Source: Deltaproteobacteria bacterium
GTDB lineage: Bacteria; Desulfobacterota; Desulfovibrionia; Desulfovibrionales; Desulfovibrionaceae
Assembly: GCA_031266055.1 (NCBI GenBank)
Contig: JAISBT010000003.1
Span: 1 to 35,477 of the forward strand
DNA: 35,477 nucleotides
Reading direction: 5' to 3'
Shown: positions 15,798-26,315 of the stretch, piece after piece
How the letters are laid out: each line of letters begins with the position of its first letter
Numbering within the stretch: position 1 is the first letter of the stretch
Translations under genes and position numbers: made by a program
Notes under the pieces: generated by a model
Told to the model about the DNA's origin: nothing
Seen by the model: the letters and a program-made list of their open reading frames with translations, nothing else
Databases searched by the model: none

Positions 15798-16937
15798 TTA
15801 TTCGCCGCTGCGGATTGCCGCGTAAGGCTCCAGCCTGGACGCGATCAGGGCCGGATAAAGCGCCGTCAGGATGCCTACGGCCACGGTCACAGCCAAAGTT
15901 ACGGCCAGCTTGCACAAAACAGAGCCAAGAAAGGACAGGGAGGATAATTCAGCGGAAACAAAGCCGGTATTGCTTAACATCAGCCATATTGCCGAAAGCG
16001 CTATACCCAGGACTCCCCCTATGCCCCCAAGCATGACGGCTTCGCAGATGATCAGCCTGAAAACGAAGCTGTTTCCGGCGCCCATGGCCTTGAGCAAGCC
16101 GAATTCCCGCCTGCGCCCGTGCACCATCAGGGCAAACAGGGCGCCTGTAATCAGCAGTACGCCGATGACCACCAGCAAAGCGGCAATATTGGCGCTCCCG
16201 CCCTGAAGCAGCCCGTAAAGCTGGTCGTTGATGGTTTTGAGCAATTCCGGGCGGGTGATTACTTCAATTCCGGCGATGTTTGCCTCCAGCCGGTTGACCA
16301 CGGCATCCAGAAAGGCGCCGCGTTGGAGGCGCAGTAAAATCCAGGAAGGTTCGGCCATTTGCCCCGCAGGCAGCGGAATAAACACCGAGGTGTCCGGAAA
16401 AGCGCCGGTTTCTTGCATACGTCCGGCAATCAGCAAATTTTCGCCGTTTAGTTCCAGCTTGTCACCGGGGGCCTTTCCCACGGCAACCCGCGCCCCCAGC
16501 ACCACCCCGGCGGAGCGTTCCCGGAAGCCGGGAGAACTTTTCTTATCCAGCCAGGGTTGAACCACAAAATCCGTCGCCGGTTCATAGCCGGTAAGCTTTA
16601 CCCGGACGTTTCCCACAACCGCGCTGCCGAGTTGCTTCTGGACGGCCACCGCTTCAATATCGGAAAATTGCGCCAGTTGTTCCGGCACGCCCGAAGGTAC
16701 CGCGCCTTGCGCCGGAGGCCCCTGGGTCAAATGAAGCTGCCCGCTTTCCTTTGTTCCGCTTGGAACAACCGCCAAATCCGGCTCCTGCAGGCGGCGGGTG
16801 TTTTCCAGTTCGTTCTGCACGCCGCCGGTCATGAAAGCGGCCGCAAACACCATGGTTAAAGCCAGAGCAACGGCGAAAACAATAATAACGTTGTACGCCT
16901 TGTGTCCTTGTATATTTTTCAGCGCCAGATGCCGCAT
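15798..16937 (-). CDS. FtsX/MacB-type ABC transporter permease (second of the cluster)
   Basis: This 379-residue permease has one N-terminal membrane segment (about residues 17-37), a periplasmic MacB-core-like domain (about 40-235) and three C-terminal membrane segments typical of FtsX-like permeases. The cytoplasmic coupling motif HGRRREFGLLKAMGAG and the ending EPYAAIRSGE match LolC/MacB relatives and its paralogue at 19436-20644 (EPYEAIRRGE). Type VII ABC systems of this kind use ATP for mechanotransmission or export across the periplasm rather than classical uptake. Only one ATPase is encoded nearby, so the two permeases probably form a heterodimer on it. An AAGGAT ribosome binding site precedes the ATG. 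It is the last gene of the cluster. Confidence 0.88.
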   Translation of the reverse strand: MRHLALKNIQGHKAYNVIIVFAVALALTMVFAAAFMTGGVQNELENTRRLQEPDLAVVPSGTKESGQLHLTQGPPAQGAVPSGVPEQLAQFSDIEAVAVQKQLGSAVVGNVRVKLTGYEPATDFVVQPWLDKKSSPGFRERSAGVVLGARVAVGKAPGDKLELNGENLLIAGRMQETGAFPDTSVFIPLPAGQMAEPSWILLRLQRGAFLDAVVNRLEANIAGIEVITRPELLKTINDQLYGLLQGGSANIAALLVVIGVLLITGALFALMVHGRRREFGLLKAMGAGNSFVFRLIICEAVMLGGIGGVLGIALSAIWLMLSNTGFVSAELSSLSFLGSVLCKLAVTLAVTVAVGILTALYPALIASRLEPYAAIRSGE

Positions 16938-16964: not shown

Positions 16965-18131
16965 TCACCAGACAGGGCGTCCGGATTTTTGCACCGCTCT
17001 TTTTCTTTTCCTCCGGAGCCAAAGCAACCCTGCAAGCGCCAGCGCGACAACTCCGGCCGCTCCGTAGCGGATACCCCGCGATGCGCCGGAGTCTTTGTGC
17101 CGCAGTTTTTCCAGCCGCGCGTCGGTATAAGACAACAGTCCAAAGGTTGTGCCCGCGAGAATAACGGGCGGAACCGAGGGTATAACGAAAATTTTATGCA
17201 AAAAGGCGTTGTCCAGCCCCTCGTTCAAGTCCACCCAGGATTCGCCCCTGTCCACACTCCTGTAAGCCCCGCCCCAGGCTCCGGTATAAACCACTTCCGG
17301 GTATTCGGGAGCCGCGGCAAAAGAAAAAATGGTCACCGTCAGCAAGGTGGTCTCATTCCACGTTCTTCCGCCGTCCGAAGTCCTGAATACCCCTCCGTTG
17401 GCCTCACCGACGTAAAAATCCGTCGGCGTTGCCGGGTGATAGGCTCCGGCCAGCACAATGTCCGGATTTTCCGGGTCAATATGCAAGGCGGTAATGCTCA
17501 GGCTGCTTAACCCCTGATTGATGTCTATCCAGGAAACCCCGCCGTTGCCGCTTTTAAAAACCCCGGCGCCTCCCGTACCCGCGTATAAAAACTGCGGGTT
17601 TTTAGGGTCAATGCTGACCGCGTTGACATTGACCGTGCGTTTGAAGCCGGAAGACATGTGCCAGAGCTTGCCGCCATTGGTGCTGATTGCCACCCCGCCC
17701 ATGATTCCTATGTACAGGAGATTGGGGTCTTTCGGGCTGATGGCCATGCAGCGGACGGACAGGTTGGGCAGCCCCTCGTTCATGGCCTGCCAGGTATTTC
17801 CGCTGTCAGAGCTTTTAAAAATACCCCTGCCGTCATAACTCACATACAATTCTTTGCTGTTAAGCGGGTTGACCAGCACAGCATTCGGGAAAGCATCCTC
17901 CGGTAAATTTCCGCCAAGCTTCGCCCAGGTGCTTCCGTTGTCCATGCTCTTTTGCACGCCCACGGAAGTAGCTGCGTACAGAGTGGAAGGGCGGGCGGGA
18001 TCGCTGGTCAGGGAAACAATATGCACTTTATCCAGGGCGATTTTATGCCAGACGTTTTCCCCGGCCCATGCCGGCGCAATGACGGAACACCATAAACCTG
18101 AAATCAAGAATACGCTGAATATCCTGGCCAT
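16965..18131 (-). CDS. Secreted, membrane-anchored BNR/YCF48-like beta-propeller protein
   Basis: This 388-residue protein has a signal peptide (ending near PAWA), about seven repeats of the BNR/sortilin type (SxDxGxTW: MDNGSTW, SDSGNTW, TNGGKLW, GNGGVSW, SDGGRTW, VDRGESW) and a C-terminal membrane segment followed by the basic tail RRKRKR. It is therefore a periplasmic propeller anchored by its C-terminus. Propellers of this type act as assembly factors in some systems (YCF48/HCF136 in photosystem II), so a scaffold or maturation role is possible. It lies between the two ABC permeases. An in-frame GTG sits just upstream at 18134; the ATG at 18131 is chosen because AAGGA lies six bases before it. 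Confidence 0.75.
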   Translation of the reverse strand: MARIFSVFLISGLWCSVIAPAWAGENVWHKIALDKVHIVSLTSDPARPSTLYAATSVGVQKSMDNGSTWAKLGGNLPEDAFPNAVLVNPLNSKELYVSYDGRGIFKSSDSGNTWQAMNEGLPNLSVRCMAISPKDPNLLYIGIMGGVAISTNGGKLWHMSSGFKRTVNVNAVSIDPKNPQFLYAGTGGAGVFKSGNGGVSWIDINQGLSSLSITALHIDPENPDIVLAGAYHPATPTDFYVGEANGGVFRTSDGGRTWNETTLLTVTIFSFAAAPEYPEVVYTGAWGGAYRSVDRGESWVDLNEGLDNAFLHKIFVIPSVPPVILAGTTFGLLSYTDARLEKLRHKDSGASRGIRYGAAGVVALALAGLLWLRRKRKRAVQKSGRPVW

Positions 18132-18309
18132 CACTTTTCCTTATATAGTTGATGCTGAAAAAGTCGGGAACCGACTTTTTCAGAAAGGCACGCCGGCTCC
18201 AAGCGCCGCTACGCGGACGCCGCAAATAAATTGCTGCTCGCTTTTCGCCGCGCCCGGTCGATTGCATCGACCGGGTCAGTCGGCCGACAACATACACCTT
18301 GCCGGCCGG
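18132..18309. other. Intergenic region with two perfect hairpins inside the cluster
   Basis: CTGAAAAAGTCGG (18155-18167) pairs with CCGACTTTTTCAG (18171-18183), a perfect 13-base stem with a three-base loop. CCCGGTCGAT (18253-18262) pairs with ATCGACCGGG (18266-18275) around TGC. The first one lies about 20 bases upstream of the propeller gene and could act as a partial terminator or an mRNA stabiliser that lowers expression of the last two genes. No reading frame is supported here. Confidence 0.55.
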
Positions 18310-18726
18310 TTACGGGTGAATAATTTTCCATTCCCGTTTGACGCGCGCGAGATCCATGTTTGAATCGGAACTGTACGCGCCGAACTGCAAAGGCACCACC
18401 ACCCTGGCGTCAACAACGGCCGTATCGTTTTCTATGCTTTCCCCTTTTATTTCCAGCAGCATCTCCGGCGAATACATGGAAACCCTGTCAATAAACTGGT
18501 TGTAGGAATTGTTGTAATGCCGCAGGCTTACCAGGGAGTAGGCTTTTTGGTAATCCCGGTTTTTCACGGCCGCGAAATATTGCTCGACCACCTGCCGGGG
18601 AGAAACTTCCGGCAGTTTGATGTTGTCAAGATAATACTGGCTGCCTGCAAATCCAATTCCCGCCAGAAGCAAAAAAAGTATCGTCCATACCGCTTTCTTT
18701 TTAAGCGCTTTCCTGTTGGCCGTCAT
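18310..18726 (-). CDS. Small membrane-anchored NTF2-like protein of unknown function
   Basis: This 138-residue protein has a basic N-terminus, one membrane segment (AVWTILFLLLAGIGFAGS) and a soluble periplasmic domain starting SPRQVVEQYFAAVKNRDYQKAYSL. That stretch is typical of NTF2-like/DUF4878-type folds, in which a helix is followed by a curved sheet. The function is unknown. The ATG at 18726 is one base after the ABC ATPase stop (TAA-C-ATG), so translation is probably coupled; an in-frame upstream ATG at 18780 would overlap the ATPase gene by 53 bases and is less likely. Its place within the transporter genes suggests that it is an accessory subunit. Confidence 0.65.
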   Translation of the reverse strand: MTANRKALKKKAVWTILFLLLAGIGFAGSQYYLDNIKLPEVSPRQVVEQYFAAVKNRDYQKAYSLVSLRHYNNSYNQFIDRVSMYSPEMLLEIKGESIENDTAVVDARVVVPLQFGAYSSDSNMDLARVKREWKIIHP

Positions 18727-18727
18727 G

Positions 18728-19429
18728 TTACAATTCCCCTTCCCCGGCACAGCTTCCGGAAGCGACTTCGCTTTCTTCATACGGCATCAACCGGCTGTTT
18801 TTCAAGGTATAAGCCAGGCCGGATTTGACGTAGCCCAATGCGTGGGTCACCATGATCACCGTTGTGCCTTGTCCGTTAATCCGCTGGAAAAGGCGCATGA
18901 TCTCCTCTTCGGTTTTTTCGTCCAGATCACCGGTCGGTTCATCGGCCAGCATAATGGACGGCCGGTTGATCATAGCTCTGGCTATGGCCACTCTGCGCTG
19001 CTGCCCTCCGGAGAGCTGCGAAGGGGAATAGTCGTCTTTCCCGGTTACTCCCACCATTTCCAAAAGCGAACCGGCAAATTCCCGGTCTTCAACATTGGGG
19101 TTTCTGCCGCTGAAGGCAATGGGCAAAAGAACATTGTCCAATACATGCAAGGTAGGAATCAGGCTGGGAAACTGAAAAACAAAGCCCAGTTTCCGGTTCC
19201 TGAGAGTGGCCAGCTCCGGCTCGGGCAGTTGCCAGATGTCCGCATCGTCAATGAACACCTTCCCTTCGCCCGGTCTGGTCAAACCGCCCACAATGCTGAG
19301 CAGGGTCGTTTTCCCTCCGCCGGAACGTCCCGTGACAATGACAAAAGCGCCGTCTTCCACCCGCCAGTTTATCCGGTTCAGCACATCCACGCCTTTATAT
19401 TGCTTGCTGAGGGTTTCCACTCGGATCAT
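18728..19429 (-). CDS. ABC transporter ATPase (LolD/MacB type)
   Basis: This 233-residue ATPase has Walker A GRSGGGKTTLL (about residues 34-44), Q-loop FVFQFPSLIPTLHVLDNV, signature LSGGQQRRVAIARAM, Walker B IMLADEPTGDLD and the switch histidine in MVTHALGYV. It is closest in style to LolD/FtsE/MacB-type ATPases that energise FtsX-like permeases. It starts six bases after the first permease stop and ends one base before the NTF2-like gene. The single ATPase must serve the permeases on both sides (19436-20644 and 15798-16937). In canonical nos clusters the ATPase is NosF with an ABC-2-type permease NosY; this one belongs to a different transporter class. Confidence 0.92.
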   Translation of the reverse strand: MIRVETLSKQYKGVDVLNRINWRVEDGAFVIVTGRSGGGKTTLLSIVGGLTRPGEGKVFIDDADIWQLPEPELATLRNRKLGFVFQFPSLIPTLHVLDNVLLPIAFSGRNPNVEDREFAGSLLEMVGVTGKDDYSPSQLSGGQQRRVAIARAMINRPSIMLADEPTGDLDEKTEEEIMRLFQRINGQGTTVIMVTHALGYVKSGLAYTLKNSRLMPYEESEVASGSCAGEGEL

Positions 19430-19435
19430 CGCGGT

Positions 19436-20644
19436 TTATTCTCCTCTTCTGATGGCTTCATATGGTTCACAACCGCTGATACGGCATGCCGGATAAAGGC
19501 CGCCCAGTATCCCGGCCAGCAGAGACGCGGCCATGCCGGTTAAAGCGGTTTGCAAAAAATAGCCGGTATCCGGCCACATATATAAATTGCCGATCATGTC
19601 GGTTATAATGTCTTTACCGAAATAGACCGCGGCAAACCCCGCCAGGATGCCGAAAAAGCCGCCGATCCCGGCAATGCAGACAGCCTCCAGGACAATCAGC
19701 TTGAAAACCAGACTCCGCCCGGCTCCCATGGCCCTGAACAACCCCAACTCCCGCATCCGCTGCCGCACCGACAAGGCAAACAGGTTGCCCGCCAAAATAA
19801 GCGCCAGAAGGCTGAAGATTCCGCCGGCCACAAAAAGCGCGTCCACCAGATTTTGTAACTGCCGGCTGAAAGAGCGCGTCAGCTGATTGGCCGTCACCGC
19901 TTTGAGTTCCGGAATATTTTGCTCAATGCTTTGGGCTACCAGCGCAGGGTCTGTCCCTGCGTCCACTTTGACCAGAATGGTGGAAATTTGATCCCTTTTC
20001 ACCGGCACAGGGTACAGCGGCGATTCTTCGGTCATCCGATAGGCCATATCCATGGTAAGAAAGACGGTATAATCCGTTCCGAGACCGGTCGGCTCCAAAA
20101 TCGTGGCCACGGTGAAAGGCTTGCCCATAAACATCAGCCGTTGCCCGATGGCCTTTGCGGGGGTGCCGACTACCGCTGAAATAACCTTCGCCCCCACAAT
20201 GAGCTGGTTATTTTGCAACGGTTCCGCGGTTTTTTGCAATACCCAGGGGTTTATGGTAAAGTCCCGTTCCGGGTCAAAACCGACCAGAGCCACCTGCACA
20301 ACGCAACACGCCGCGTCCAGGCTGCGCAGGTAAACTTGCGCGCAAGTTTGTTGCACCCCGCGCGTTTTTCGCACCTTCTCCTCCAGAGACAGCGGCATGT
20401 AAAAGGTACTGGGACTGCCCGAAATCAAGGCCGACAGCGCTTCTTCCCGCGCATCGGCGGGCACGGCCACAATATCGGCTCCAAGACGTTCACCGGCGGT
20501 TTGCAAGGTATACTGAATCCCTTTGGAGAGTATTGCCGCCGTAAACAGGGTGGCGCAGGCCAGAAAAATTCCGCCGATCATAAGCCAGGTGCGGAACGGC
20601 TTGCGTTTCAAATTTTGCCTGACCAGGTAAAAAATCTGTCGCAT
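19436..20644 (-). CDS. FtsX/MacB-type ABC transporter permease (first of the cluster)
   Basis: This 402-residue permease has an N-terminal membrane segment (about residues 20-40), a large periplasmic domain (to about 270) and three C-terminal membrane segments. SVRQRMRELGLFRAMGAG is the cytoplasmic coupling motif and the ending EPYEAIRRGE is shared with the second permease. Both permeases share NPWVLQK/QPWLDKK-like stretches in the periplasmic domain, showing that they are paralogues. The periplasmic domain contains neighbouring cysteines (AACCVVQ) that could bind metal or form a disulfide, which is only a suggestion. It lies six bases before the ATPase. A repeat hairpin (20666-20706) sits just upstream of its start. 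Confidence 0.9.
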   Translation of the reverse strand: MRQIFYLVRQNLKRKPFRTWLMIGGIFLACATLFTAAILSKGIQYTLQTAGERLGADIVAVPADAREEALSALISGSPSTFYMPLSLEEKVRKTRGVQQTCAQVYLRSLDAACCVVQVALVGFDPERDFTINPWVLQKTAEPLQNNQLIVGAKVISAVVGTPAKAIGQRLMFMGKPFTVATILEPTGLGTDYTVFLTMDMAYRMTEESPLYPVPVKRDQISTILVKVDAGTDPALVAQSIEQNIPELKAVTANQLTRSFSRQLQNLVDALFVAGGIFSLLALILAGNLFALSVRQRMRELGLFRAMGAGRSLVFKLIVLEAVCIAGIGGFFGILAGFAAVYFGKDIITDMIGNLYMWPDTGYFLQTALTGMAASLLAGILGGLYPACRISGCEPYEAIRRGE

Positions 20645-20741: not shown

Positions 20742-21188
20742 TTAGGGCTGATTCGCTATATCCAGGTCAAAGGATTGCTGAAACAGCCGGTCGTTGTCAT
20801 CTTTGAACTGCGCCTTGACCTGCCAAAAGCCGCCATGCCCGTATTGCGCCAGCGCAACGTATTCTCCGTCTTCCGCTTCTTTAAATTCCAGGGCCAGGGG
20901 GTACCCCGGCATCGGCATTTCGGGCATCCACACTTCGCCCGTCACTGACCGCTGTTTAACCGGGCTGCCTCCGGCATGGCGCAAAAACAGGCTGATTTGA
21001 ACCAACCCCGGCTTGCCGGGCGTTTTCAATATCCAGGTATACTCCGGAGATTTTTTTTCAACGGTTATTTCCGGAATATTTTGACCGGATGAAGCCGGAA
21101 AAACCGGCCCGGCCTGAAGACCGGCCGTAAACCAACAAAGAAGACCGAAAATGACGGAAAAAAATTTAATCCTCGCGCAGCAGATCAT
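20742..21188 (-). CDS. YtkA/FixH-like secreted protein
   Basis: This 148-residue protein has a signal peptide or anchor (IKFFSVIFGLLCWFTAGLQAG) and an immunoglobulin-like domain with WMPEMPMPGYP and YGHGGFWQVKAQF. Both are typical of the YtkA-like/FixH family; a methionine-rich PxMPMxG turn and a later GHGGxW motif are its signature. FixH relatives assist copper-containing oxidases (cbb3) and YtkA-like domains occur beside copper proteins, so copper handling for the neighbouring reductase is a reasonable inference. The ATG at 21188 is chosen because GGAG lies six bases before it; an ATG at 21200 would add four residues. It follows the second cytochrome module by about 50 bases. Confidence 0.7.
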   Translation of the reverse strand: MICCARIKFFSVIFGLLCWFTAGLQAGPVFPASSGQNIPEITVEKKSPEYTWILKTPGKPGLVQISLFLRHAGGSPVKQRSVTGEVWMPEMPMPGYPLALEFKEAEDGEYVALAQYGHGGFWQVKAQFKDDNDRLFQQSFDLDIANQP

Positions 21189-21239
21189 TCCAAGCTCCAT
21201 GCAGTTGATATTTCTGGTGCCGGCTTGCGTAAAAGCCGC

Positions 21240-21812
21240 TTACCAGCTCGGAACATCGGCATCCATCATCCAGAAATATTGCGGATACCGATAGTGAAGA
21301 GCCAGCCATTTATTGTCATAGCGGCTTGAGAAATCGGCCAGCATACGCGGAGGATTGGCCATGGCCTGGCCGAAACCGCTTTTGTGGCAGCTCGCGCAGC
21401 TCCATATGGGCGTCGTACTGCAAGTATGCGCGGTAACTACCGCCAAGGCCAGAAAAATCGCGAGGCCAAAGCCGCCCGCCAGCCGTTTGAGCCATTTTTT
21501 ACGGGCTCCGCCGCGGTCAAGCCGCGATAATACGCACATTCCCACCAAAACGAATGCCGGAAGCCAAAAAACGCCGACCATTTCCAGGCTGTCCTGAAAA
21601 TAGCGGGTCACCTGGAAGATCAGCATAAAAAGCCAGTCGGGCTGAGGAATGGAGGAAACGGTTATCGGGTCGGCGGTGCTGTGTTCCTGCATCCCGAAGG
21701 CCGCCAGCCCGAAAAGCAAAAGCAGCGTGCAAGCTGCCGCAACCGCTGTATGCGCGAATTGTCTGAATCCGAAGGGCTCGGTTTCAGCGGGATCGTATTT
21801 TTGTGCTGCCAT
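21240..21812 (-). CDS. Subunit IV-like/cytochrome c protein of a second bc-type module (divergent)
   Basis: This 190-residue protein has three predicted membrane segments and a C-terminal c-type heme site CASCH (near residue 140). The segment SSIPQPDWLFMLIFQVTRYFQ corresponds to the PEWYF Qo-site stretch of cytochrome b6f subunit IV, but the key PEW is PDW and the following YF is LF. After CASCH a Met of MANPPRM or WMMD could be the second heme ligand. Compared with the first module's protein (24426-25127) it is about 40 residues shorter. The changed Qo motif and the lack of a second Rieske gene suggest a simple quinol:cytochrome c electron path rather than a full bifurcating complex; this is inference. 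Confidence 0.75.
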   Translation of the reverse strand: MAAQKYDPAETEPFGFRQFAHTAVAAACTLLLLFGLAAFGMQEHSTADPITVSSIPQPDWLFMLIFQVTRYFQDSLEMVGVFWLPAFVLVGMCVLSRLDRGGARKKWLKRLAGGFGLAIFLALAVVTAHTCSTTPIWSCASCHKSGFGQAMANPPRMLADFSSRYDNKWLALHYRYPQYFWMMDADVPSW

Positions 21813-22065: not shown

Positions 22066-22707
22066 TTACATGGGTTTGGCAACGCCGAGCCTGCGTACCA
22101 TCAGGAAATGCCCGACAAGAAAAACCCCGGTCAGCGCGGGAAGCACAATGGCATGTATGGAAAACCACCGGCCAACCGGCACCACGCCGTCGGGCGCATC
22201 GGAAAACAACAGCCATTTCAGCGCGTCCGCGAACAAGGGCAGGTTTTCAAGCCAGTTGCCGATGGTTTTTACCGTCCAATAGGAGCGGAAATCCCACGGC
22301 AACAGGTATCCGGTCGCCGCGAACGCCAGGGTAAGCAGCAACAGCGCAACGCCGCTGATCCAGTTCAACCCGCGCGGGGAGCGGTAAGCGCCATGATAGA
22401 GAATACGCAGGACATGGATGATCAGGAAAAGCACCATGATCAACGCGCCCCAGCGGTGAAGCGAACGGCAGAATCCGCCCATCCGGACGTTTTTTTCAAT
22501 AAATTCAATGCTTGTCCAGGCATCCGCCGGAGTCGCCTGAAAAAACATCGCCAGATAAATTCCCGATAAAACCTGGAGTAAAAAGACTATAAAGGTCAAA
22601 CCGCCAAAACAGTACAGCCAGTTCACCCATTTGGGCACCGGGCCGAACAGTTGTTTGAAACCCAGTTTGTCCGCGCACCGTTGATAAAAATTTTGTCCAG
22701 CTTGCAT
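22066..22707 (-). CDS. Cytochrome b (b6-type) of the second bc module
   Basis: This 213-residue protein has four membrane segments and the four heme-b histidines in b6 spacing: SLHRWGALIMVLFLIIH (H-x13-H) and SIHAIVLPALTGVFLVGH (H-x14-H). LYCFGGLT in the first helix carries the cysteine that, in cytochrome b6 and Firmicutes QcrB, covalently holds the extra high-spin heme c(n)/c(i). TGYLLPWDFRSYW is the usual Qo-side motif. It follows the reductase gene by 63 bases, including a hairpin, with AAGG near the ribosome binding position. No Rieske gene accompanies it. It is a paralogue of the cytochrome b at 25144-25812 and probably passes electrons from menaquinol to the neighbouring cytochrome c protein. 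Confidence 0.9.
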   Translation of the reverse strand: MQAGQNFYQRCADKLGFKQLFGPVPKWVNWLYCFGGLTFIVFLLQVLSGIYLAMFFQATPADAWTSIEFIEKNVRMGGFCRSLHRWGALIMVLFLIIHVLRILYHGAYRSPRGLNWISGVALLLLTLAFAATGYLLPWDFRSYWTVKTIGNWLENLPLFADALKWLLFSDAPDGVVPVGRWFSIHAIVLPALTGVFLVGHFLMVRRLGVAKPM

Positions 22708-22770: not shown

Positions 22771-24330
22771 TTAAGCTTCAACAACAAACCATCCGCGCAT
22801 TTCCAAATGCAGCGGTCCGCAGAAATAGGAGCAGAACATGGCGAATTTTCCGGGTTTGTCCGCGACAAATTCAAAAATGACCGACTTGCCTTGCGGAACG
22901 CCCCAGTTGGTTTGCAGACCGTATTCGTTAATGATGAAGCCGTGAACCGGGGCCGGGTCATTGGTCAGCCCGGTGGCTTTGTCGATATTGGTCAGAATGA
23001 CGCGCACCTTGTCGCCCTGTTTCACCGTAACCGTGTCCGGCTTGAAGCCGTAGCTGAATTCCTGCAGGCGGATTTCCACCACCCCGTCGCTGGTCTTCGT
23101 CACGCCCGGGGCTCCTTTATCTTCCGGAACCAGCTTGGCGGCCACACTGGGGTCTCGGTGCGGCGCATAGATGGAAGCGTGTCCTTCAGGAGGCAGCTTG
23201 GCGTTCAGGTACCCCAGCACAGCGTCCGCTTTGATTATTTTGGCGTTATGCGGCTCAGGCACAGTGGGCGCTCTGGCGATCACTTCCTCTGTAGCGAGGT
23301 CGATCAGTTCGACGTTGGTCGGATCCTGGTTGGAAATGGAGCCGGCAAAAAGCCCGGTGGAGTATTTGTTCCAAACGGTGATGTATTTGCTGTCGGGCGT
23401 GATTTGCAGATGGCCGGGACGGTAATGGACGGGAATCTTTTTCACCAGTTCCATTTTTTCCAGGTCGATCTTGGCCACGGCGTTGTCCACAAACAGCGTT
23501 GTGTAAGCCCATTTTCCGTCATTGGTAAATACGGTGTGCAAGGGGCCGGGCGCGGCGCTCTTCTGGAAACCCGGGACAGCCGGCGTAAGGTCGATCTCCT
23601 TGATCACTTCCATTTTGCTGATGTCGATAACCGGTATGTTTCCGGAAAGTTTGCCGGCGACAAAAGCAAGTTTTCCATCCATGGTCAGATCTATGCCGTG
23701 CGGATTTTTTCCGGCGGGAATAAACTTGACCCGTTTAAAGCTGTCCACTTCTATAACATGCACACCGGAACGGTAGTAATCGGTGGCCAGGCAATATTTT
23801 CCGTCATGCGTGACGAGCAGGTAGTCCGGGGCCGATTCCTGCCCGTCCGATACGTCAATAACCTCGACCTTGCCGCTGGCGATGTCGATTTTGGCCATTT
23901 TGCCGGACAATTCGCCGGTGGCGAAAAGAGTTTTTCCGTCAGGCGTCAGGGCGATGTGGTGAGGGCCGAACGGCGCGGGAATATTGATCTTGCGCACCAG
24001 TTCCTGGGTGGAGATGTCCACTATGCCCACCGATGAGTCGCCTTTGTCATTGATGTAGACATATTTGCCGTCAGGGGTTCCGTTGGTTCCGGGCTGATTG
24101 GTGCCGGAAAATACCGGCTCGTGGGTATCCACGCCCACAGGAATCAATTTGATGGTTTGCAGACTGGGCAGGCCGATGACCTGCAGCGTCCCGGAAATGC
24201 CTCCGGAAGCGAAAATAACATACTCGTCCTTGGCAACGTTCAACGGAGCGGCGCCAGCCTCAAAACCCGCCGCCATCACCATGAACAGCGCCAGCAATTT
24301 GGCGGCCGTCCGCAGGATTCTTTTGTCCAT
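22771..24330 (-). CDS. Divergent nitrous oxide reductase-like protein (YVTN beta-propeller + CuA cupredoxin)
   Basis: This 519-residue periplasmic protein has a Sec-type signal peptide (cleavage near AGA-APL), a seven-bladed YVTN/lactonase-like propeller (about 35-395) and a C-terminal cupredoxin (about 415-519). The CuA site is complete: H463 in VHGF, then C500-x3-C504-x3-H508-x2-M511. NosZ-like stretches include GPLHTVFTNDGKWAYTTLFVD, VHYRPGH, YINDK and PTVPEPHN. Canonical NosZ has DxHH and a GPLHPEN histidine; here these are DTHE (E71) and SISNQDP with no His. Instead one His lies near the start of each blade: H70, H124/125, H175, H211, H265, H307 and H361. A CuZ-like cluster with a different ligand set is inferred. 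The ATG at 24330 has AAGGAGG eight bases before it; an upstream in-frame ATG at 24393 is rejected. The substrate is probably N2O but unproven. Confidence 0.8.
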   Translation of the reverse strand: MDKRILRTAAKLLALFMVMAAGFEAGAAPLNVAKDEYVIFASGGISGTLQVIGLPSLQTIKLIPVGVDTHEPVFSGTNQPGTNGTPDGKYVYINDKGDSSVGIVDISTQELVRKINIPAPFGPHHIALTPDGKTLFATGELSGKMAKIDIASGKVEVIDVSDGQESAPDYLLVTHDGKYCLATDYYRSGVHVIEVDSFKRVKFIPAGKNPHGIDLTMDGKLAFVAGKLSGNIPVIDISKMEVIKEIDLTPAVPGFQKSAAPGPLHTVFTNDGKWAYTTLFVDNAVAKIDLEKMELVKKIPVHYRPGHLQITPDSKYITVWNKYSTGLFAGSISNQDPTNVELIDLATEEVIARAPTVPEPHNAKIIKADAVLGYLNAKLPPEGHASIYAPHRDPSVAAKLVPEDKGAPGVTKTSDGVVEIRLQEFSYGFKPDTVTVKQGDKVRVILTNIDKATGLTNDPAPVHGFIINEYGLQTNWGVPQGKSVIFEFVADKPGKFAMFCSYFCGPLHLEMRGWFVVEA

Positions 24331-24425
24331 ACTCAGATCCTCCTTGCTCCAATAAAACTGGAAAGTAACATTTTTTCGGAAACAATGACTCACGCCCTGA
24401 CGCTGGTACCATGTAGCGCTTAAAA

Positions 24426-25127
24426 CTACTTCTTTCTCGAAAGATATGCGGATACCTCGTGCCGTTCCGCGTCGCTGAGGGGAATTACCGACATGATCGT
24501 TGCCTGGTTCACAATTTGCGGGTCGATAATAACCTGCTCAATATAGGCCCGGTTCGCCCGCGCGCCGATCTGCGTCAAATCGGGCGCCATGAACCCGCCT
24601 TTTCCGTCAACGGAATGGCAGATCTGGCAGAACCTGCCGAAAATTTCTTCTCCCGCGGCAATTTGTTCGTCGGTAACCGGCGGCAAATCCATGGTGTAGA
24701 GATGCGACTCGTCCTCCAGCACAGACAGCGCGGTCAGCGCGGCAATGCACAATACGCTTGCCAGGGCGAGCGCCGCGGTCAAAGGTCTTTTTCTTATGCC
24801 GGTGGCCGCGCTCCGGTCAAGAAACGGCAGGAGGACAAGCAGCGCCAGCGTCAGAGCCGGAAGTACGACAATGGCGACAACAGCCAGGGAACCTTCAAAA
24901 TATTTCAGCAGTTGGAAATAAAATAAAAAGTACCATTCCGGCCTGGGCACATACGCTGTATCGCCGGGGTCGGCCATTTCCTCCAGCGGAACCTGCCAGA
25001 CAAAAGCAATCAGCACAATGACCAAAAAAACCGCTATGGCGGCAACGCCCTCGACAAACAGATGATCCGGATAAAAAGGGGTAGGGTTTTTATCCGTGGA
25101 GCCAGGAAGAGAAGAAATGCCGCTCAT
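24426..25127 (-). CDS. qcrC: Fused subunit IV/cytochrome c of a menaquinol-cytochrome c reductase
   Basis: This 233-residue protein joins a cytochrome b6f subunit IV-like part (three membrane segments, residues 1-140 or so) with a C-terminal monoheme cytochrome c (CQICH near residue 168, with Met candidates in TIMSVIPLSD). FYPDHL at the start and RPEWYFLFYFQLLKYFEG contain the Qo-site PEWY motif in intact form. This fused design is known from Firmicutes and other menaquinone users (QcrC type). The gene starts 16 bases after the cytochrome b stop. With the Rieske and cytochrome b genes before it, it completes one bc complex. The reductase gene follows after a gap of about 95 bases, so the c domain or a soluble carrier could feed CuA. 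Confidence 0.88.
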   Translation of the reverse strand: MSGISSLPGSTDKNPTPFYPDHLFVEGVAAIAVFLVIVLIAFVWQVPLEEMADPGDTAYVPRPEWYFLFYFQLLKYFEGSLAVVAIVVLPALTLALLVLLPFLDRSAATGIRKRPLTAALALASVLCIAALTALSVLEDESHLYTMDLPPVTDEQIAAGEEIFGRFCQICHSVDGKGGFMAPDLTQIGARANRAYIEQVIIDPQIVNQATIMSVIPLSDAERHEVSAYLSRKK

Positions 25128-25143: not shown

Positions 25144-25812
25144 TCATAACGGGCGGGAAATGCCCTGGCGGCGAATCATGAAGAAATGGGCCGCCAGAAA
25201 TATTGTCAGCAACGCCGGTAACACCATGACATGAATGACGAAAAAGCGCGTCAAAGTAAGCGCTCCGACTTCGCTCCCGCCCCGGAGCGCGTCAGCCAGA
25301 AACCCGCCGATCAGAGGAATGCCCGCAATCATATTCACGCCGACAGTGGTCGCCCAGTAAGCTTTTTGATCCCAGGGCAGCAGATATCCGGTAAAACTGA
25401 ACCCCGCGACGAGCAGTAAAAGAAAAACGCCGACAACCCAGTTCAATTCACGCGGGTTTTTATACGAACCGGTAAGAACAACCCGCAGCATGTGCAACAT
25501 GACCATAACCACGGCGGCGCTCGCTCCAACTCTGTGTACACTCTGGAGCAGGCCGCCGAAGGCGGTCTCCTGCCGGATATAGGTGACGCTGGCATACGCG
25601 TGGTCAGGGGAGGGCACATAATAGAACATCAGAAAAACGCCGGTCAGGACTTGCAGCAGAAGAATGAAAAAAACCATGCCGCCGAAACAATAAATTATTG
25701 CCTTGGGAGTTTTCAAAAGGTTGGCGTGATCTGGAACCGGGTGGTTCGCTATTTCGCTGATCAGCGGGCCAAGATGCAACCGTTCGTCTATGAACTGGTA
25801 AATCCGGTTCAC
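25144..25812 (-). CDS. qcrB: Cytochrome b (b6-type) of the complete bc complex
   Basis: This 222-residue protein has four membrane segments and heme-b histidines in VHRVGASAAVVMVMLH (H-x13-H) and IHVMVLPALLTIFLAAH. IIYCFGGM carries the cysteine expected to bind heme c(n)/c(i), and TGYLLPWDQKAYWATTVG is the Qo-side signature. The start is a GTG at 25812-25810, two bases after the Rieske stop, giving VNRIYQFIDERLHLG; the longer upstream reading would overlap the Rieske gene completely and is rejected. It forms a menaquinol:cytochrome c oxidoreductase with the Rieske protein and the fused subunit IV/c. Confidence 0.9.
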   Translation of the reverse strand: MNRIYQFIDERLHLGPLISEIANHPVPDHANLLKTPKAIIYCFGGMVFFILLLQVLTGVFLMFYYVPSPDHAYASVTYIRQETAFGGLLQSVHRVGASAAVVMVMLHMLRVVLTGSYKNPRELNWVVGVFLLLLVAGFSFTGYLLPWDQKAYWATTVGVNMIAGIPLIGGFLADALRGGSEVGALTLTRFFVIHVMVLPALLTIFLAAHFFMIRRQGISRPL

Positions 25813-25814
25813 GG

Positions 25815-26315
25815 TTAAGCCTCGTTTATGAAAATTTTGTTTGCTTCCACTTTGACCGCCAACTGGGCCAGCGGTTTCGGCGGAGGCCCTTCCAGCACTT
25901 TTCCCTGCGCGTCGAATACCCCGCCGTGGCAGGGGCATTTGAACCGCCGCGCGGCGGGATCCCAGGTCACCCCGCAGCCAAGATGCGTACACCGGTTGGA
26001 AAAGGCCGCGATATTGCCGTCCGCCTGTTTCAGCACAAAGGCCGTTTTGCGGATTTCCGACATTTCCCAACCGTCCTTACGGGCGTATTTATAGGTTATT
26101 CCAACGGGCTCTCCGGCTGTAAGCGCCGGAACATCCGCTATTTCAATCCAGCCCGGCGCGTTTTTTTTCAGTACCGGCGAAATGAAAAACCCGGCCAGCG
26201 GAATGCTCAGGCTCAACCCGAAAAAGCCGACGACAGCTTTAATCCCGTTGATAAAAAATTTGCGTCTGGGCAGGTTTTTCTTTTCTTCTGAATCCACGCG
26301 CAATACCCTCATCAT
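25815..26315 (-). CDS. qcrA: Rieske iron-sulfur protein of the bc complex
   Basis: This 166-residue protein has an N-terminal basic stretch and one membrane anchor (VVGFFGLSLSIPLAGFF), followed by the Rieske domain. The [2Fe-2S] ligands are in CTHLGC and CPCHGG (about residues 109-132), with the usual FNA/VLEGPPPKPL proline loop after them. The N-terminal PRRKFF resembles a Tat motif with the second-position RR, as Rieske proteins often use Tat export. It is the first gene of the minus-strand cluster. The stop is two bases before the GTG of cytochrome b. The only Rieske gene in the cluster, it may serve one or both cytochrome b proteins. Confidence 0.95.
   Translation of the reverse strand: MMRVLRVDSEEKKNLPRRKFFINGIKAVVGFFGLSLSIPLAGFFISPVLKKNAPGWIEIADVPALTAGEPVGITYKYARKDGWEMSEIRKTAFVLKQADGNIAAFSNRCTHLGCGVTWDPAARRFKCPCHGGVFDAQGKVLEGPPPKPLAQLAVKVEANKIFINEA

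Follow-up and report, generated by a model that had tools for sequence, protein, structure and literature searches.

Whether a protein that departs from the canonical histidine set of nitrous oxide reductase (NosZ) could still carry a catalytic CuZ-type cluster, and which systems would supply that cluster with electrons and copper, is the question raised by a gene in a 35,477-nucleotide stretch of Desulfovibrionaceae DNA (contig JAISBT010000003.1, hereafter the window). Among known enzymes, N2O reductase is the main sink for N2O, a greenhouse gas, and a third family of the enzyme in anaerobes outside classic denitrification would make this sink wider. Such a family, the clade III or lactonase-type N2O reductases (L-NosZ), has been described by He et al. 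(2025, Nature 646:152), which we cite as represented in papers that refer to it. Sporomusa acidovorans and Nitrospirota were among the taxa in which lactonase-type nosZ-like genes had been noted earlier (PMC11033732). Clade III reads were excluded from at least one large metagenome survey (PMC12569097).

The window encodes a lactonase-type N2O reductase with a complete CuA motif

The gene occupies positions 22771..24330 on the minus strand, where a sequence-only reading had placed it, and the open reading frame was confirmed. Translation gives a product of 519 amino acids with a plain Sec-type signal; a ribosome site, AAGGAGG, lies upstream of the ATG at 24330, and a GTG at 24393 is a possible alternative start. 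Two relatives, L036 and L038 (Sporomusa and Desulfosporosinus), carry lipoprotein-like signals at their N-termini (LAGC and LGGC). Profile searches matched the window protein to the NCBIfam model NF052460, an equivalog named 'clade III lactonase-type nitrous-oxide reductase' with a curated cut-off of 700 bits, at 880 bits over model positions 1–479 of 480. Against the canonical NosZ models TIGR04246 and TIGR04244, both with a cut-off of 625 bits, it scored merely 238 and 185 bits, respectively. Since the first match stands above its cut-off and the canonical models fall far below theirs, the family concerned is L-NosZ as already described, and by sequence comparison we assign the protein to it with high confidence. 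The kinship with divergent lactonase-type N2O reductases that the sequence-only reading had raised as a possibility was therefore right. By analogy with the published family, the protein is predicted to reduce N2O to N2; clade III NosZ is treated as catalysing acetylene-sensitive N2O reduction in a paper that cites He et al. (2025) for this (PMC13274427).

Matches to PF10282 and PF13473, together with structure models, reveal a seven-bladed propeller of the lactonase type followed by a cupredoxin, and residues 199–518 match NosZ structures at 1e-42 in sequence searches. The CuA motif (22798..22944, minus strand) is complete by alignment and conservation, comprising H463, C500-SYF-C504, H508 and M511. 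The fusion of a YVTN/lactonase propeller to a cupredoxin with an intact CuA site, as first read from the sequence, is borne out, and the residue numbers and the NosZ-like runs reported with it (GPLHT..AYTTLF, VHYRPGH and EPHN) were all correct. Three second-sphere residues, K322, E359 and F503, are invariant in an alignment of 34 sequences and match K454, E492 and F621 of Pseudomonas stutzeri NosZ, a proposed conduit between CuA and CuZ (PMC11573801). At the H463 position, the larger of the two L-NosZ subclades has Met in 31 of 32 rows and a gap in the last, with the other CuA ligands kept (for example, L065:265-2016 and L040:9890-11629).

Fold and phylogenetic placement

Models of the window protein were predicted from a 7-sequence alignment (mean pLDDT 74) and from a 34-sequence alignment (mean pLDDT 82). 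Whole-chain superpositions by Foldseek gave rmsd values near 16 Å, probably reflecting a cupredoxin placement in the monomer model that differs from that in the NosZ dimer, and propeller-only alignments were used instead. The propeller of the deeper model superposed on NosZ crystal structures with Z scores of 40–41 and an rmsd of ~2.6 Å over ~322 residues, at 33% identity. The non-copper YVTN protein 1l0q, at Z 41.3, tied with NosZ, so the fold alone is not decisive for function, and we base the functional assignment on sequence, the CuA site and the histidine set.

A contig scan of genomes recovered 68 loci, of which ~45 encode L-NosZ. In terms of best-segment identity, the closest belong to Desulfovibrio and deltaproteobacterial metagenome-assembled genomes (MAGs; 87–94%); Sporomusa acidovorans reaches 80% and a Desulfosporosinus MAG 76%. 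The remoter L-NosZ sequences, at ~39–52%, come from Nitrospirota, Gallionella, gammaproteobacteria, Mariprofundus and deltaproteobacterial MAGs. A 70-sequence tree sets L-NosZ apart from canonical NosZ and places the window protein among the Desulfovibrio and Sporomusa rows (SH-aLRT 99). We take these two points and nothing else from the tree: the row L060 is misplaced on a branch of length 10, probably through a frameshift or misjoin, and the YVTN proteins, which form a group of their own, attach to L-NosZ through long branches. A grouping with non-copper YVTN proteins or with cytochrome oxidase subunit II, which would have spoken against an N2O reductase, was looked for and did not appear.

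L-NosZ gave no match above cut-off in the 14 other genomes sampled from the same family, and two further genomes gave only weak matches. Because a Bacillota sequence falls inside the Desulfovibrio clade and L-NosZ is missing from the sampled genomes of the same family, this distribution suggests horizontal transfer of L-NosZ, with the operon moving as a whole.

A probable shift of the CuZ histidine pair between blades II and III

In Marinobacter nauticus NosZ, the CuZ ligands are H132, H133, H181, H323, H378, H429 and H490, and canonical enzymes take two consecutive ligands from blade II and none from blade IV (PMC11573801). Six of the seven have a histidine counterpart in the window protein. 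By alignment, H70 corresponds to P. stutzeri H129, H124 to H178, H211 (23698..23700) to H326, H265 (23536..23538) to H382, H307 (23410..23412) to H433 and H361 (23248..23250) to H494, all encoded on the minus strand. The position of P. stutzeri H130 is taken by Glu71, which gives blade II the motif D-x-H-E in place of the canonical D-x-H-H (H70-E71, 24118..24123, minus strand; conservation in 42 L-NosZ and 26 canonical NosZ sequences). In blade III, H124 is followed by a second histidine, H125 (23956..23961, minus strand), which aligns with P. stutzeri G179 and whose position in the 26 canonical rows is filled by Cys, Ser, Gly, Val or Ala.

Across the 42 L-NosZ rows, H70, H124, H125, H211, H265, H307 and H361 are each absent from at most one covered row. 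Glu71 is present in 10 of 10 close homologues and in 29 of the 30 other homologues covered, the single exception being a Tyr from the set that includes the long-branch row L060. In the cleaner alignment of 34 sequences, all seven histidines and Glu71 are strictly invariant. Histidines occur at this register in ordinary YVTN repeats as well. Chance is excluded here by the score of 880 bits against a cut-off of 700 and by the strict invariance of the set in the 34 sequences. These alignments support a shift of the double histidine from blade II (HH to HE) to blade III (H to HH). We have good confidence in a CuZ set made up of these seven histidines and moderate confidence in H125 as a predicted copper ligand. 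The shift may already stand in He et al. (2025); papers citing that work do not give ligand details.

The sequence-only reading had likewise predicted a variant CuZ with a non-canonical set of seven histidines, and that set is supported, although by another route and with one member exchanged. It had counted two classic ligands as missing. The replacement of the second His of DxHH by Glu71 holds, but the histidine of GPLHPEN (P. stutzeri H467, as counted from the alignment) lies outside the seven published ligands (PMC11573801), and for this reason only one classic ligand is missing. It had also offered H124 and H125 as alternatives: a ligand from blade III is upheld, with both residues near-invariant and H125 the one that canonical NosZ lacks.

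Conservation leaves some room for another assignment of the seventh position. Glu71 stands at the place of ligand H130 and matches H125 in conservation, so that a CuZ with six histidines and one carboxylate, in which Glu71 ligates copper and H125 is only structural, can be envisaged. We regard this as unlikely, since H125 is present in the very sequences that lack H130 and an adjacent pair of histidines already serves as CuZ ligands in canonical NosZ (PMC11573801).

A second departure from the seven-histidine reading concerns the metal centre itself. The hub of the propeller might hold a smaller site, for instance three coppers as in thiocyanate dehydrogenase, with an activity other than N2O reduction. 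Thiocyanate dehydrogenases are seven-bladed propellers whose hub binds copper through histidines; the window propeller aligns with them at Z 31–33 and matches them in sequence at 5e-6. NosD and NosL were not detected (see below), and in P. stutzeri NosZ the CuZ site was no longer metalated when any one of six of its seven ligands had been replaced (PMC11573801), points that speak for a smaller site. However, NosZ is favoured by both sequence and structure: the propellers are 33% identical and the CuA domain is complete. The six other CuZ histidines are conserved, as are the equivalents of K454, E492 and F621, and the number of histidines still comes to seven. The activity published for the family (He et al., 2025, as cited in PMC13122619) points the same way, and we judge a smaller site to be quite improbable.

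Lastly, the sequence-only reading had proposed one inward-facing histidine per blade, which would make H175 of blade IV (23806..23808, minus strand) the seventh ligand. The window protein shares H175 with 9 of its 10 close relatives, the tenth having Lys; in the distant homologues the position is Lys in 29 of 32 and Lys or Arg in 31 of 32, the remaining one being a gap. In the predicted models H175 sits two residues past the inner strand of blade IV (168–173), within the A-B hairpin, and only one residue ahead of a DGK turn, compared with 6–7 residues ahead for H124, H211, H265 and H307. With H175 unconserved, 5–6 residues out of register with the other propeller histidines and made superfluous by the near-invariant H125, we give this arrangement scarcely any credence. 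Blade IV of L-NosZ is, like that of canonical NosZ, without a CuZ ligand.

An operon encoding a Rieske/cytochrome b/cytochrome c complex

The gene forms part of a minus-strand operon, described here from 26315 downwards. The first gene in this order encodes a Rieske iron-sulfur protein of 166 amino acids (25815..26315; PF00355; CTHLGC...CPCHG) and is followed by a first cytochrome b (25144..25812; 222 amino acids; PF00033) and by a cytochrome b C-terminal subunit fused to a monohaem cytochrome c (24426..25127; PF00032 and PF00034), whose haem motif, CQICH, is conserved in 11 of 11 sequences. Downstream of L-NosZ lie a second cytochrome b that is syntenic in the subclade (22066..22707; 213 amino acids; PF00033) and a 190-residue protein (21240..21812) with a CxxCH haem site (CASCH), also conserved in 11 of 11 sequences; a Pfam search with the latter gave no hit, and its sequence suggests a cytochrome b C-terminal-like subunit. 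The operon then continues with a YtkA/FixH-like exported protein (20742..21200; PF13115), a syntenic MacB/FtsX-type ABC permease (19436..20644; PF02687 and PF12704), an ABC ATPase of the FtsE/LolD-like type (18728..19429; PF00005), a small DUF4829-like exported protein (18310..18780; PF16111 just under cut-off), a Sortilin/BNR-repeat propeller protein with a C-terminal hydrophobic stretch (16965..18134; PF15902) and a second MacB/FtsX-type permease (15798..16937; PF02687 and PF12704).

The longest open reading frame for the first cytochrome b, with a TTG start at 26070, overlaps the Rieske gene in a different frame, and translation probably starts instead at the GTG at 25812. An operon without a Rieske protein was considered and rejected, the Rieske gene being the one that overlaps this over-extended reading frame.

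As far as the contigs extend, the gene order is kept in close relatives, including Sporomusa acidovorans and, in part, Desulfosporosinus. L-NosZ, two cytochrome b genes, two haem c proteins and the ABC transporter are shared by the Desulfovibrio MAGs and Sporomusa acidovorans. Relatives of the DUF4829-like gene follow L-NosZ in the other subclade too. In most loci of that larger subclade (L039–L071), L-NosZ is followed by one or two propeller proteins resembling virginiamycin B lyase (for example, L054:14809-15795).

Searches of the genome that contains the window and of the Sporomusa acidovorans genome gave one Rieske match apiece, located within the L-NosZ operon in both cases. No haem-copper oxidase or nitric oxide reductase (PF00115) was found in the 7 genomes tested and hence, in these, no other CuA enzyme of that type would compete for electrons. 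We consider it very likely that the window protein is a periplasmic clade III N2O reductase, in which a CuA site fed by the Rieske/cytochrome b/cytochrome c complex serves a variant seven-histidine CuZ that includes H125. Electrons would pass from menaquinol to the operon-encoded complex and from there, in the direction that we infer, to CuA in the C-terminal cupredoxin. CuA would in turn reduce a copper-sulfide cluster of the CuZ type placed on the axis of the propeller, a predicted Cu4S2 cluster bound by H70, H124, H125, H211, H265, H307 and H361. Position 125 in blade III would supply the seventh histidine, the second blade II position being Glu71, and N2O would be reduced to N2 at this cluster.

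Cluster assembly may proceed through a MacB-type transporter

In the systems known so far, CuZ comes together with NosD and NosL; in canonical systems, NosL acts as a copper chaperone dedicated to CuZ (PMC6530538). Searches of the window genome (91% complete) and of 10 genomes of the subclade detected neither NosD (TIGR04247) nor NosL (PF05573), and both were found in Pontibacter, the positive control for these searches. The MacB-type ABC transporter and the YtkA-like and DUF4829-like proteins might, with low to moderate confidence, replace NosDFY and NosL in maturation. The alignment of the YtkA-like protein shows conserved methionines (M92..M95.M97), making it a candidate copper carrier; no YtkA match was found in the Sporomusa acidovorans operon, which weakens its proposed role. 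Some loci of the other L-NosZ subclade carry an ABC-2 type transporter, and at L042, L055, L070 and L071 a NosD-like right-handed beta-helix fused to a cytochrome c is encoded near L-NosZ (for example, L071:10521-11948). Taken as one proposal, a relocated seventh histidine with an invariant Glu in the vacated place, in a CuZ-type cluster built by a MacB-type system independently of NosD and NosL in the Desulfovibrio/Sporomusa subclade, mostly with a YtkA-like protein, is tentative, and we put its chances at slightly below even.

If true, a seven-histidine cluster with one ligand moved would show which parts of CuZ are interchangeable, and maturation free of NosD and NosL would allow cluster assembly to be compared across two machineries.

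Comparison with known systems

The L-NosZ family was already known, and the variant ligand set is supported here in corrected form. With published L-NosZ the window protein shares a full-length match above the cut-off and the combination of a lactonase-type propeller with a CuA cupredoxin, and Sporomusa acidovorans, for which such genes had been noted before (PMC11033732), belongs to its subclade. The literature that we searched on N2O reduction by termite-gut Desulfovibrio held nothing relevant. Within L-NosZ, the operon of the window's subclade combines a MacB-type ABC transporter with a Rieske protein, in place of which loci of the other subclade carry an ABC-2 type transporter and Vgb-like propellers; the canonical CuA histidine of the former subclade (H463) is Met in the latter. 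Unlike non-copper YVTN/6-phosphogluconolactonase propellers, the window protein has a CuA domain and an invariant set of histidines. Its match to thiocyanate dehydrogenase is weaker than that to NosZ in both sequence and structure. To our knowledge, thiocyanate dehydrogenase has no CuA cupredoxin domain. Compared with canonical NosZ of clades I and II, the window protein has a shorter propeller, DxHE instead of DxHH in blade II, and a blade III pair HH where the canonical enzymes have H followed by Cys, Ser, Gly, Val or Ala; it scores far under both canonical cut-offs and comes from a genome in which NosD and NosL were not detected. It nevertheless shares with the canonical enzymes the fold, the CuA motif, six of the seven CuZ histidines and the second-sphere Lys, Glu and Phe.
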